From: an uncultured bacterium
Lineage (GTDB): Bacteria; Cyanobacteriota; Vampirovibrionia; Gastranaerophilales; Gastranaerophilaceae
Assembly (NCBI GenBank): GCA_949300485.1
Contig: CASGEL010000007.1
Location: 62,001-126,000 of the forward strand
DNA length: 64,000 nt
Direction of reading: 5' to 3'
Under the pieces are notes generated by a model, which made no database searches, was not told where the DNA came from, and saw only the letters and a program-made list of their open reading frames with translations. Each line of letters opens with the position of its first letter. Within the stretch, counting starts at the first letter, position 1. Positions 3,437-62,006 of this stretch are shown here, one piece after another. Both the position numbers and the translations under genes were made by a program.

Positions 3437-4314
3437 AATTCATTTTCCTTTTCATTATTTCCGCCCAAAAATCTTATTTCGGGTTCTAATTCTATATTAT
3501 AATTTACCTTTACTTTTGTGAACATTTCAAACATTAAACTCAAAACATCTAATGACGTACCCGCTCGATCATTTACAATAAAGTTTGCATGATTTTCCCA
3601 AATTCGCACACCACCATATGACATCTCTTTGGCCCCTACAGAATCAAGAAGCCTGCCTGCGGAATCGCCTTTTGGATTTTTGAATACACTTCCGCAATTT
3701 GGTAACGATAAAGACGGTTGATGTTCTTTTCGGAATTGCAAATTTCCATCCATCTGCTTTTGAATAATATCTTTGCCGGAATTTTCAAGTTCAAAACATG
3801 CCTGCAGAACAATCAAATCCTCCTTCTGACAGCGAGAAGATCTATATTCAAAATTCATATCTTTATTAGAAAGTTTTACAATACCATTGCTTTTTGAATA
3901 ACAAATAGCATAAATCAATTTATCACTTACAGACTGGGAATTAGCCGAAGCATTCATATAAACTTCTCCACCGACAGACCCGGGGAAACCTATCATAAAC
4001 TCCAAACCTGAAAGATTATTTTCACAGGCAATCTGTGCTAATTTAGGCCCCTTTACTCCGCAATCAGCCGTAACAAAATTACCCTCTATTGTAACTGACT
4101 TCATATTTTTAGTAAGTATAATTTTACCGCTGTAACCGTCATCCGAAACAAGAGTATTTGAAAGATTGCCAAAAACTTTGATATCAGAATTATTTTTCAA
4201 AATATTTTCAAATTCATCAATATTTTCAGGCAGAAATACTTCATCGATTACCCCGCCTATTTTGAATGAAGTTAACTTCTTAATATCAAAGTTTTTTTCA
4301 CTGCTAATTGCCAA
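3412..4314 (-). CDS. murB: UDP-N-acetylenolpyruvoylglucosamine reductase
   Basis: FAD enzyme that reduces UDP-GlcNAc-enolpyruvate to UDP-MurNAc in the cytoplasm. Seen: TSFKIGG at the N-terminus, GFPGSVGGEVYMNA (FAD/substrate site), YRSSRCQ, LPNCGSVFKNPKGDSAGRLLDSVG and HANFIVN. The length of 300 aa fits a type II MurB. The start is uncertain: the upstream TTG at 4314 touches the AGGAG (4315-4319) with no spacer, whereas an ATT codon at 4306-4308 has a six-base spacer and overlaps the murC stop. Either would be a non-ATG start coupled to murC. Confidence 0.93.
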   Translation of the reverse strand: MAISSEKNFDIKKLTSFKIGGVIDEVFLPENIDEFENILKNNSDIKVFGNLSNTLVSDDGYSGKIILTKNMKSVTIEGNFVTADCGVKGPKLAQIACENNLSGLEFMIGFPGSVGGEVYMNASANSQSVSDKLIYAICYSKSNGIVKLSNKDMNFEYRSSRCQKEDLIVLQACFELENSGKDIIQKQMDGNLQFRKEHQPSLSLPNCGSVFKNPKGDSAGRLLDSVGAKEMSYGGVRIWENHANFIVNDRAGTSLDVLSLMFEMFTKVKVNYNIELEPEIRFLGGNNEKENELCKILYKK

Positions 4315-21902: not shown

Positions 21903-22613
21903 TTATTCTCTAATTCCGGCAGATTCTTTCATCATCTGTTCAGTAGTTTTACTGGCATCACCGCCCAAATAGTTTTCAGGGTTATCAGGAGGGAAAAGAC
22001 TTACTGATTTTACAAAGGTTCTGTTACCAATCAAAACAGACTCAGACACTCTTGTAGAAAAAGCAAATATATCTTGACCCCATTTATTAGGACCTTTACG
22101 TCCATTAACATCTATAGCAAACAATCTCATATAATTGGTACCATCTGAAATAATTACCATACTATTATCAAGAACATATGCCTTACTATTGGTTACATTA
22201 AAATTACCACCAGGAGCAGGTGGGTAATTACCCGGTAAACAACCCTCTGTTACCGCATTATTTTCACATTTTCGTGTAGCACCCATAGCTTTTACAAATG
22301 CATCCATAAAAGCTTTACACTCAGTATTTTTTTCAGATGGCGAACCGTTTATGCTCAAGCCGAAATCATCTTCTGCTGCATTATCAGGAATCTTATAACA
22401 AGAATAAACTTTACCTTCATCAATTGTAATATTTTTCATTGCCGCTTCCATTTTAGCAAACGCTGTTCTGAACTCAGCAAGTCGTGCTCTTTGTTGAACA
22501 GAAGAACCAACCGTAGACAATGTTAATGTTGCCAAAACTCCAATCAATGATAATGTTACCATTACCTCAGACAGTGTAAATCCAAATTTTTTATTATTTA
22601 ATCTCATACTCAT
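21903..22613 (-). CDS. Type IV pilin / pseudopilin-like protein
   Basis: Prepilin with a short charged leader, then the cleavage/methylation motif KFGFTLSEVMVTLSLIGVL: Gly before Phe+1 and Glu+5, followed by a hydrophobic helix that packs in the pilus core. After that a globular domain with several Cys and a Pro/Gly-rich segment (GNYPPAPGGNF). Could be a major/minor pilin or a type II secretion pseudopilin; no assembly genes are nearby. The frame opens further upstream (22649); I prefer the ATG at 22611-22613, which leaves a leader of about 11 residues. Confidence 0.8.
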   Translation of the reverse strand: MSMRLNNKKFGFTLSEVMVTLSLIGVLATLTLSTVGSSVQQRARLAEFRTAFAKMEAAMKNITIDEGKVYSCYKIPDNAAEDDFGLSINGSPSEKNTECKAFMDAFVKAMGATRKCENNAVTEGCLPGNYPPAPGGNFNVTNSKAYVLDNSMVIISDGTNYMRLFAIDVNGRKGPNKWGQDIFAFSTRVSESVLIGNRTFVKSVSLFPPDNPENYLGGDASKTTEQMMKESAGIRE

Positions 22614-58477: not shown

Positions 58478-59599
58478 CTATCTTATTTGAACAGGCATTA
58501 TCAAACAGATAAAATCATCTTCACTGTTTGGTTTTAAAACAGTAGCAGATAAACTAGCATTTAAACCTATTATAACTTCATCACTTTCAATAATTCTCAA
58601 TGCATCTAATACAAATTTATAATTAAAAGCAATTAATAATTCTTCAGCAGTATATTGAATATCAATTTTATCTTCAGACTTACCTGAATCAGGAGTATCA
58701 GCAGACAAAGTTAATTCATTATCTGCAAACAACATTTTAACAATACTTGTTTTATCGTTTACCATTACAGAAACTCTTTCTAAAGCTGCAATAAGCTGAG
58801 AAACATTAACTATAGCCTGTTTTGGACTTTCTGACGGTATTAATTGATTATATTTAGGGAACTGACCTTCTAATAATCTTGAAATTGTTAATGTTTTTTC
58901 TGTTTTTAATACTATTGTTGATTTATCTTTACAGATTTTTATTGTTTCATCATCAATAAAAGCTCCCATTTTCATAAATTCATTCAATGTTCTTGAAGGA
59001 ATTATTAATTGAGTTTGCTCAGTTATATCACTATTTATTTTTTCTCTGACTCTTGCTAATCTATTCCCATCAGTTGATGCTATTTCTAAAATACCGTTTG
59101 AAAAATCACAAACAATACCTGATAACAAATTGCTGACTTCATAACTTGCAGCAGCAAAGCCTGCTTGTCTTATAGCTTTTAAAAACGGTTTTAACTCAAC
59201 ATCAAAACATTTAGATTCATCTAATTCATAATTAGAAACTTCTGGCGGAAATTCACTTGCTGAAATTCCTATTATATCAAATTTTGATTTATTACAAGTT
59301 ATAGTTACACTTGTTTCACCATCTTCAAGCTCGAAAGTAACTAAATCATTGCCTAATTTTGATACTATTTCATTTAATTTTCTGGCAGGAAGAGTAATTT
59401 TTCCAGACTGTTCAACTTGGGCATCTACAGTTGTAATAACAGTTAAAACTAAATCTGTTGCAGTCAATTTTACTGTATTATTATCCAAAGCTTCAATCAA
59501 TATATTATATAAAACAGGTTGTACAGCTTTTTGAGAAGTTGCTCGTTCTACTATTTTTATACCGTTATATAAATCCTCTTTCCTGATAATAAATTTCAT
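58478..59599 (-). CDS. dnaN: DNA polymerase III sliding clamp (beta subunit)
   Basis: About 373 aa. Ring-shaped clamp that tethers polymerase III. Seen: MKFIIRKEDLYNGIKIVERATSQ, LTATDLVLTVITTVDA, KFDIIGISASEFPP, DGNRLARVREKI, and the C-terminal LNASLSATVLKPNSEDDFICLIMPVQI. The frame opens two codons earlier at a TTG, but AAGGAG is eight bases before this ATG. It lies immediately left of the putative origin. Confidence 0.95.
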   Translation of the reverse strand: MKFIIRKEDLYNGIKIVERATSQKAVQPVLYNILIEALDNNTVKLTATDLVLTVITTVDAQVEQSGKITLPARKLNEIVSKLGNDLVTFELEDGETSVTITCNKSKFDIIGISASEFPPEVSNYELDESKCFDVELKPFLKAIRQAGFAAASYEVSNLLSGIVCDFSNGILEIASTDGNRLARVREKINSDITEQTQLIIPSRTLNEFMKMGAFIDDETIKICKDKSTIVLKTEKTLTISRLLEGQFPKYNQLIPSESPKQAIVNVSQLIAALERVSVMVNDKTSIVKMLFADNELTLSADTPDSGKSEDKIDIQYTAEELLIAFNYKFVLDALRIIESDEVIIGLNASLSATVLKPNSEDDFICLIMPVQIR

Positions 59600-59792
59600 A
59601 CCCAATACTCCTTAATCAAATTCTATTATAAATATTATAAGATAAATACAGTGAAAAATAAAATAATATCAATATATATTACAAAAAATACACAACTTTG
59701 CCGGAATTAAAAACTTAAATTTTACAGGATAGATAAAATTAGTTCAAAAAACTTTATCTCTGTATAATCAAGGAAAATGTAAAAAATCAGGA

Positions 59793-60071
59793 ATGAGAAT
59801 AAGCGGAGTTTTCGAAAATACTGAATGTTCATTTTTATATGATGAAAAAGGGAAAGTAGTACTAGGATATATTTTTCCCACTGGTAAAACAGGAGAAGCT
59901 TGTTTAAGATCTTTAGCAAAAGTGCTTAAGAATAAATATCCAAATATAACGGCACCTTTACCTGAATTAACAAAATACGGTTTTTTGAAAACTAACATTA
60001 TACTAACAATATATTTATATATTTATATTAATAAAATATACTTCATGATAATAAGGAATAAATATTTGTAG
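59793..60071 (+). CDS. Small hypothetical protein between dnaN and the origin
   Basis: 92 aa, starting MRISGVFENTECSFLYDEKGKVVLGY. The first 66 residues have normal composition (PTGKTGEACLRSLAKVLKNKYPN) while the tail is low-complexity Ile/Tyr/Asn-rich and runs into AT-rich DNA. TATAAT at 59763. Ribosome site weak (CAGGA). Could be real or chance. Confidence 0.4.
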   Translation: MRISGVFENTECSFLYDEKGKVVLGYIFPTGKTGEACLRSLAKVLKNKYPNITAPLPELTKYGFLKTNIILTIYLYIYINKIYFMIIRNKYL

Positions 60072-60240
60072 AAAACTTCTGAAAGTATGATTATACAAGG
60101 TTTTTAAAATGTAGAAAATTTGTAGAAAATCTTTTAGAAAAATTTATAAAATGTAGAAAACTTTTTCATAAATAAAATATAAACAAAATTTATGTTCAAA
60201 ACTTTAAGTTTTCTACATTAATTCTACAAAGTTTTCTACA
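60067..60240. other. oriC: Candidate replication origin: TGTAGAAAA/TTTTCTACA box cluster
   Basis: Exact 9-mers TGTAGAAAA at 60067-60075, 60110-60118, 60121-60129 and 60152-60160 and its complement TTTTCTACA at 60209-60217 and 60232-60240, plus a weaker AATTCTACA at 60220-60228. The complement differs by one base from the cyanobacterial DnaA box TTTTCCACA. Very AT-rich, no gene, and flanked by divergent genes with dnaN on the left. Likely oriC; DnaA itself is not in this window. Confidence 0.7.
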
Positions 60241-60287: not shown

Positions 60288-62006
60288 ATGGAATTAAAGT
60301 CAAAGTTATTAAATTTTTGGGATAAAATATTGCAATTTTCAGATAAATATGCAGATATTTTAACCTTTTTGGGATTAGCAGTACTTTTTTATTTTATATT
60401 CTTTCACGATATAGGAACATATTCATTAATGGATGTTGATGAAACTAGATATGTAGCTATGGCAAGGGATATGTTTCATTCAAAAGATTTTATGACACTT
60501 TATTTAAATGGTGAGTATTTCTTTGAAAAACCTCCTTTATATTTTTGGCAGGAATGTTTATCTTTTGCTTTGTGGGGTAAAATTAATGAATGGACTGCAA
60601 GATTTCCTGTAGCCTTATTAGGTTTTACTTTTTCAATGGTTGTCTATTTTATTTCAAGGTATTTTATGAATAGGAGATGCGGTGTCTTTACTTCATTAAT
60701 TCTTGCAACATCTTTAGAATTCATTATGCTTGCTAAATATGCTATATTAGATATCGTGTTGACTTTTTATATAGGTATGGCATTAATTTCTTATTTTTCT
60801 GTATATTTTTGCAAAGAAAATCATAAGAAATTTTTCTGGTGGGCATTTTATATCTTTTCCGGATTAGCAGTTATGGCAAAAGGTGTTCCCGGATTTATAG
60901 TTCCTTTTGGAACAGTATTTTTTACATCCATTATGGCTAAGAAGTTTAAAGAAATTTTTAGACCTATATATATGATTCCTGGGATTATATTATTTTTATT
61001 GATAGTTTTACCTTGGCACATATATATGCTTTATAAATACAATCCTTTATTTTTCAATGAATATATTATAAAACATCATATTGAGAGATTTTTTAATACA
61101 GCACATAACGAAATAGGAAGAAAACAGCCGTTTTATTATTATTTTATAGTAGTCTTGTGGGGGTTTATTCCTTGGATATTTTCAATGATTGCTGTGTTTA
61201 TTGATAAGATTAAAAATTGGAATAAATTGCATTATATTGAAAAAATAGAAAATTTTGATTTTAATAAACAGGATAATACTCATAAAATAATTGCATTATG
61301 CTGGGTTACAATTATTTGGATAATGTTTTTCTTCTCCGCATCAAGTACAAAGCTTGTAACATATATATTGCCTATATATTTTCCATTATCAATAATTGTT
61401 GGTTTGATGTGGATGGATTATGTAGATAAGAAAAAACATGAAAAGCCGATAAATATATCAGTTAAAATATTTGGTTGGTTTTGTACAATCTTTGGATTTG
61501 CAGCAATGTTTACTCCACTATATCTGCCTGAGCAGTTAAACCATGATATTGCGGAAATAAGATGGTTTAGTTTGATATGCCTTTTGGTATTCGGTATAGG
61601 AACTTTGCTGTTTGTAAAATTCAAAAAATATATGGGTGTATTTATATTCTATGTTTTGTTTATGACAGTAGTTTCAGCATTTGCAACAGAAGAATTTTTT
61701 GAAGTGGATTATAAATTCGGTCAGCAGGATCTTGTTGAGTTTGCAAAATATGCTAAAGATTATGATTATACAATTTCAGCAAACGGTATGGACAGAAAAT
61801 ATTCACTTTTATATTATAATGATGAAGAAGTTGATTTTAATCCTGAAGATGTTGATATAAAAGTAATAAAAAAAGATTTGGCAAAACCTAAAAATGTAGT
61901 TATCATAAAAAATAAAGTTTTAGAACAAGCAGATAAAAGTCTGGATTTTGAAATAGTCAAAAAAGGCAGACGCTATACTATGATAAAAGGAAAGAGTCAT
62001 AAATAA
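60288..62006 (+). CDS. GT39-family membrane glycosyltransferase (ArnT/PMT type)
   Basis: 572 aa, about 11-12 membrane segments. Seen: LMDVDETRYVAMARDM (catalytic Asp motif), EYFFEKPPLYFW, WGKINEWTARFPVALLG and LAVMAKGVPGFIVPFGTVFF. Enzymes of this class move a sugar from a polyprenyl carrier to lipid A or protein. C-terminal 100 residues are a soluble domain. Acceptor unknown. GGAGAGGG ribosome site. Confidence 0.85.
   Translation: MELKSKLLNFWDKILQFSDKYADILTFLGLAVLFYFIFFHDIGTYSLMDVDETRYVAMARDMFHSKDFMTLYLNGEYFFEKPPLYFWQECLSFALWGKINEWTARFPVALLGFTFSMVVYFISRYFMNRRCGVFTSLILATSLEFIMLAKYAILDIVLTFYIGMALISYFSVYFCKENHKKFFWWAFYIFSGLAVMAKGVPGFIVPFGTVFFTSIMAKKFKEIFRPIYMIPGIILFLLIVLPWHIYMLYKYNPLFFNEYIIKHHIERFFNTAHNEIGRKQPFYYYFIVVLWGFIPWIFSMIAVFIDKIKNWNKLHYIEKIENFDFNKQDNTHKIIALCWVTIIWIMFFFSASSTKLVTYILPIYFPLSIIVGLMWMDYVDKKKHEKPINISVKIFGWFCTIFGFAAMFTPLYLPEQLNHDIAEIRWFSLICLLVFGIGTLLFVKFKKYMGVFIFYVLFMTVVSAFATEEFFEVDYKFGQQDLVEFAKYAKDYDYTISANGMDRKYSLLYYNDEEVDFNPEDVDIKVIKKDLAKPKNVVIIKNKVLEQADKSLDFEIVKKGRRYTMIKGKSHK

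Follow-up and report, generated by a model that had tools for sequence, protein, structure and literature searches.

A DnaA-box cluster beside dnaN with a lineage-specific box as the probable chromosome replication origin of a gut Gastranaerophilales bacterium

The region at 60067-60240 of the window (the whole stretch of 64,000 nucleotides analysed here) is almost certainly the site where replication of the chromosome starts in a gut Gastranaerophilales bacterium, as judged by its anatomy, its conservation and the GC skew. The combined reading, in which about 59990-60240 is an oriC opened by DnaA and uses a lineage-specific box with a matching change in DnaA, appears very probable, and the mechanism would be the ordinary DnaA one.

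Box cluster, unwinding element and DnaA-trio-like element

An exact word search of the 64-kb window revealed six copies of the 9-mer TGTAGAAAA/TTTTCTACA within 174 bp (60067-60240) and only two copies outside this segment, at 22053 and 43632. The first-pass annotation had described four direct and two inverted exact copies and a degenerate one, and the search reproduced their positions. Two further weak boxes, at 60193 and 60220, were absent from it, and the DNA unwinding element (DUE) and a DnaA-trio-like element lie to the left of the region it delimited. The features are as follows:

58478-59605, minus strand: dnaN, DNA polymerase III beta clamp (Pfam PF00712, PF02767, PF02768)
59991-60053, no strand: predicted DUE, AT 88-95%, on the trio side of box A
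60046-60056, plus strand: DnaA-trio-like element, TGA-TAA-TAA then GG (GC step), with a 12 bp spacer to box A
60067-60075, plus strand: DnaA box A, exact TGTAGAAAA; box B follows at 54/55 bp in most relatives
60110-60118, plus strand: DnaA box A', exact TGTAGAAAA, 11 bp before B; the 43+11 spacing recurs in relatives
60121-60129, plus strand: DnaA box B, exact TGTAGAAAA
60133-60141, plus strand: weak box, degenerate TTTAGAAAA with one mismatch, 12 bp after B
60152-60160, plus strand: DnaA box C, exact TGTAGAAAA, 31 bp from B (31/32 in relatives)
60193-60201, plus strand: weak box D, TGTTCAAAA with two mismatches, where D is conserved in relatives, 16 bp ahead of E
60209-60217, minus strand: DnaA box E, exact, TTTTCTACA on the plus strand
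60220-60228, minus strand: weak box E', AATTCTACA on the plus strand with two mismatches, 11 bp after E; exact in some relatives
60232-60240, minus strand: DnaA box F, exact, TTTTCTACA on the plus strand, 23 bp from E (22/23 in relatives)
60288-62006, plus strand: PMT-type glycosyltransferase gene, flanking the cluster opposite dnaN

Since dnaN lies on the minus strand and the glycosyltransferase gene on the plus strand, the flanking genes diverge, as had been proposed for a cluster beside dnaN. In the window, the cluster is 462 bp from the listed dnaN start, a dnaN-adjacent location as in cyanobacterial-type oriC. In the whole source genome (2,053,358 bp in 27 contigs, 98.9% complete), the exact 9-mer occurs 90 times, compared to 99 for the reversed control word. 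The other 84 copies are scattered, no second clustered pair was found, and all close direct pairs fall at 60067-60240; for six copies in 174 bp, the Poisson expectation is about 2e-11 per genome. The genome-wide box count, which had been suggested as a check, therefore finds the 9-mer nowhere else clustered, and the uniqueness of the cluster is that expected of a bacterial chromosomal oriC.

By nearest-neighbour energies, no 50-mers in the 64-kb window are less stable than those beginning at 59989-60004. AT-rich DNA predicted to melt easily adjoins the boxes, which is also expected of a bacterial chromosomal oriC. A 92-aa ORF (59793-60071) without a Pfam match reaches into this part of the window, its last codons crossing the DUE and its stop codon lying inside box A. 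It resembles what is left of a secreted-protein gene after loss of the 5' part, the gene being apparently longer in a relative (G036, L035, ~500-1350; G, L, f and g codes are anonymous labels for genomes, loci, families and genera).

Aligning 51 A-B loci of relatives on box A shows in-frame TA[A/G] at positions -15 (86%), -18 (86%), -21 (59%), -24 (47%) and -27 (75%), while in the other two frames it is mostly at 0-6%. The triplets of the relatives are followed by GC and then by about 12 bp to box A, on the outer side of the box; in other genera the trio-like element is TAGTAGTAGTAAGC. The window's own copy, TGATAATAAGG (60046-60056), is a weakened, imperfect version of the relatives' element, with two perfect in-frame triplets plus TGA (TGATAATAA) and a 12-bp spacer. 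The published DnaA-trio has the consensus 3'-GAT-5' with a conserved central A, a commonest spacer of 13 bp and a maximum set at 16 (PMC8287927), and the criterion for a basal origin unwinding system (BUS) module is at least three trinucleotides with a central A, at most 16 bp from a DnaA box. On sequence grounds, the conserved element outside box A has the form of a DnaA-trio. The BUS of Bacillus subtilis and others shares with this region a DnaA box, a weak tandem box, a GC step, TA[A/G] 3-base repeats and AT-rich DNA, its spacer being most commonly 13 bp compared to 12 bp here (PMC8287927). Relative to the BUS of B. subtilis, the box word differs at position 6, and the window's own trio-like element is short and imperfect.

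Conservation among relatives and GC skew

The closest named relatives of the DnaN protein are from Candidatus Gastranaerophilales MAGs (97% for L127), and other near relatives carry the labels Zag_111 and uncultured Melainabacteria. We assign these relatives to the GTDB class Vampirovibrionia, whose members are non-photosynthetic and which stands next to Cyanobacteriia; this agrees with the earlier description of the host as a non-photosynthetic cyanobacterial relative.

In 64 of 117 relatives, the 9-mer occurs as a direct pair whose copies are separated by 13-45 bp, compared to 8 genomes with the reversed control, and inverted pairs occur in 44 of the 117, compared to one; a few of these class-level pair matches may be chance. 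No direct pair was found in 53 of the 117. Of 80 named Gastranaerophilales-type loci, 48 carry at least three copies near dnaN, for the most part 180-400 bp upstream of the gene, and the remaining families of the order have clusters with as many as seven copies directly upstream of dnaN. The boxes keep their order and distances: A, 54/55 bp, B, 31/32, C, 29-40, D, 16/17, E (inverted), 22/23, F (inverted). Between some successive boxes of several genera the distance is 11-12 bp, leaving gaps of 2-3 bp, a distance described as optimal for the DnaA filament (PMC8235120).

In several genomes of the window's genus, the cluster lies kilobases to about 60 kb from dnaN. Two of them, G006 (contig C4) and G034 (contig C2), have it about 47 and 62 kb away, indicating that the origin and dnaN were parted by rearrangement. 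In G069, G080 and G081, boxes D and E together make up a 26-bp palindrome without mismatches, TGTAGAAAACTCATGAGTTTTCTACA, whose centre, CTCATGAG, is conserved; the palindrome is imperfect in G084, G087 and G074. A tandem 18-bp repeat, TGTAGAAAACACAAAACC, at L078 (G112:C5:130931-131029) also contains the 9-mer and seems to have no connection with the origin.

Short repeats in both orientations, grouped in AT-rich DNA, have the look of iterons, and the boxes could in principle belong to an integrated plasmid or mobile replicon with its own Rep protein. However, the long contig carries genes for a dnaG-type primase, a sigma factor and dnaN, and no Rep gene was found among the neighbouring proteins tested, the neighbours being dnaN, the PMT glycosyltransferase and an aminotransferase. 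The cluster is also kept across genera and families of the order, a trio-like element is present, and the skew turns at or near the cluster. An iteron origin, already considered the less likely option by the first-pass annotation, is thus exceedingly improbable.

GC skew was computed on two contigs of the source genome and on stretches of contigs from four relatives. On the window's own contig C7 the skew changes sign with a broad minimum at about 95-122 kb, the cluster being at 122.07 kb; the cumulative GC minimum is at 97 kb, 25 kb from the cluster, and the cumulative T-A curve is lowest at 118 kb. In G169, the cumulative minimum over 400 kb is at 274,000, within 1 kb of the cluster (273,556-273,712). 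The corresponding values are 62,000 and 59,400 in G167 (within 3 kb) and 344,000 and 358,000 in G168 (within 14 kb). G166 is ambiguous, with a local turning point at the cluster (314 kb) and a lower minimum at 491 kb, 177 kb away. In the same contig (G166:C1), a 67-kb stretch of reversed GC skew at about 424-491 kb (L374-L377) interrupts the rising arm, such as an inversion or a join in the assembly would produce. The skew check proposed earlier thus places the cluster at or near the GC-skew minimum, as expected of an oriC, in G169, G167 and G168, and the draft contig of the source genome is consistent but broad.

The breadth of this minimum, together with the location of the cluster between divergent genes, would also fit a DnaA-titration or regulatory site (datA-like, or controlling dnaN or a neighbour), with replication starting elsewhere; in E. 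coli, DnaA-box clusters occur outside oriC. Against such a site, the genome contains no other box cluster, the DUE and the trio-like element stand at one side of this one, and the skew minimum is within 1-14 kb of the cluster in three relatives. Moreover, the cluster can shift away from dnaN in relatives while its internal order is kept. We therefore regard a titration or regulatory site as very unlikely. Three observations had been named as contrary to an origin, namely a skew minimum far from the site, an equal density of the 9-mer elsewhere in the genome and the lack of the cluster at dnaN in related genomes. None of them was made, and the oriC reading is supported.

DnaA residue 433 and box position 6

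The dnaA gene of the source genome is on another contig (C6:722-2146). Its product is complete (PF11638, PF00308, PF08299), and domain IV was aligned to solved DnaA structures. A search around this dnaA found no box cluster, and no TTTTCCACA cluster is present on contigs C7 or C6. Two weaker matches to DnaA-type ATPases, at G000:C3:185759-186178 and G000:C10:89606-89914, are possibly Hda- or DnaC-like.

The canonical TTWTNCACA is not matched by the boxes, as position 6 is T in all six and across the order. The word is TTTTCTACA in Vampirovibrionia families f1-f4, f6, f10, f13 and part of f7, and f8 has two copies of it. In Cyanobacteriia, clusters of TTTTCCACA are found at dnaN or dnaA, as in the published cyanobacterial oriC (PMC4674748), whereas TTATCCACA or TTGTCCACA is the word in f23, f25 and further families outside the class. 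The suggestion that the box differs by one base from the cyanobacterial one as a lineage-specific change is thereby borne out as a trait separating Vampirovibrionia (TTTTCTACA) from Cyanobacteriia (TTTTCCACA).

The equivalent of E. coli D433, at the start of the recognition helix, is Asp in every outgroup genome read. Vampirovibrionia with TTTTCTACA have Lys at this position, in the context GGRKHTT in several families; in the genus of the window one residue is deleted and the context is xKKHTT. Among genomes with at least three identical box words, residue 433 and box base 6 combine as Lys/T in 25, Asp/C in 19 (Cyanobacteriia and other outgroups) and Gln/A in one, without exception; the genomes are related, so that independent changes are few, and the D-to-K change is perhaps a single event, so that the 25/19 split does not represent 44 independent observations. 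Families f11, f12, f14 and part of f9 have other residues at 433 or no recognised cluster.

Several loci depart from the two main combinations. In G094, TTATCAACA repeats upstream of dnaN (L305, ~1036-1164 and 4111-4123) accompany a DnaA with Gln433, possibly a third pairing, and G104, from the same family, combines TTATCAACC repeats with Thr433. At L269-L272 of f11 (G096, G101, G106, G111), DnaA domain IV reads GRGNS in place of RDHTT at the recognition helix, and a box cluster was recognised neither at dnaN nor at dnaA. Thermotoga maritima was rejected as a further example of Asp433 loss accompanied by T6, as alignment of its box ACCTACCAC on the CCAC core puts C at position 6 (PMC10316083).

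An Asp accepting a hydrogen bond from cytosine and a Lys donating one to thymine would make the pairing of Lys with T6 plausible. D433 (with L438) is reported to contact base pair 7 of the box, the neighbour of position 6 (PMC8235120). Because this contact is at position 7 and the evolutionary events are few, the recognition mechanism is put forward conditionally: we infer from the sequence comparison that residue 433 would cause the preference for T6. The change at this residue in turn supports the putative binding of DnaA at the cluster.

The region could also be an oriC in which other changes in domain IV set the T6 preference and the association with residue 433 reflects shared ancestry. 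The evolutionary events are few, the groups show many differences in domain IV, the reported contact of D433 is with position 7 (PMC8235120), and the DnaA of T. maritima also lacks the Asp (NRSH) and uses a different box (PMC10316083). In contrast, the association is perfect, it includes the further state Gln433/A6 in G094, and residue 433 is at the start of the recognition helix (PMC5043019). We consider shared ancestry a realistic explanation, although a rather less probable one. It seems somewhat probable that Vampirovibrionia rewired the recognition, the loss of the almost universal Asp433 (to Lys, in places Gln or Thr) going with a new box base 6 (T or A) in a pair orthogonal to TTWTNCACA.

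Proposed mechanism and comparison with known origins

For the oriC reading, we infer binding of DnaA at the boxes and unwinding at the DUE. The C-terminal domain of DnaA would bind the ordered TTTTCTACA boxes, and the protein would spread from box A across the weak tandem boxes to the DnaA-trio-like element. It would then open the very AT-rich DNA left of that element, where the helicase would be loaded. The box would be a lineage-specific form of the cyanobacterial TTTTCCACA, with T for C at position 6, and Lys in place of the Asp433 found in most bacteria the proposed matching change in the DNA-reading helix.

The oriC of Synechococcus elongatus, Anabaena and Cyanothece likewise have a box cluster beside dnaN, an often non-adjacent dnaA and an AT-rich stretch (PMC4674748). 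The present origin differs from them in TTTTCTACA for TTTTCCACA, Lys for Asp433 and the fixed A-F order of its boxes. Epsilonproteobacterial origins (Helicobacter, Arcobacter) also combine a lineage-specific box base with altered DnaA contacts (PMC5043019). There, the base change is at position 5 and the 433-434 dyad is called highly conserved (PMC5043019), whereas here the change is at position 6 and another residue stands in place of the Asp. The open-access literature searched yielded no description of this origin or of the TGTAGAAAA/TTTTCTACA box, and as far as that literature shows, the class-wide change of the box with a matching change in DnaA is new.

Few protein-DNA pairs of bacteria are as conserved as DnaA and its box. 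A change of both partners throughout a class offers a natural experiment on the evolution of an essential recognition pair, one that is testable with simple binding assays. Searches with the canonical TTWTNCACA or with TTTTCCACA miss these boxes unless a mismatch is allowed. The TTTTCTACA word can be used to locate the origin, to orient genomes and to obtain peak-to-trough growth rates for uncultured gut Gastranaerophilales.
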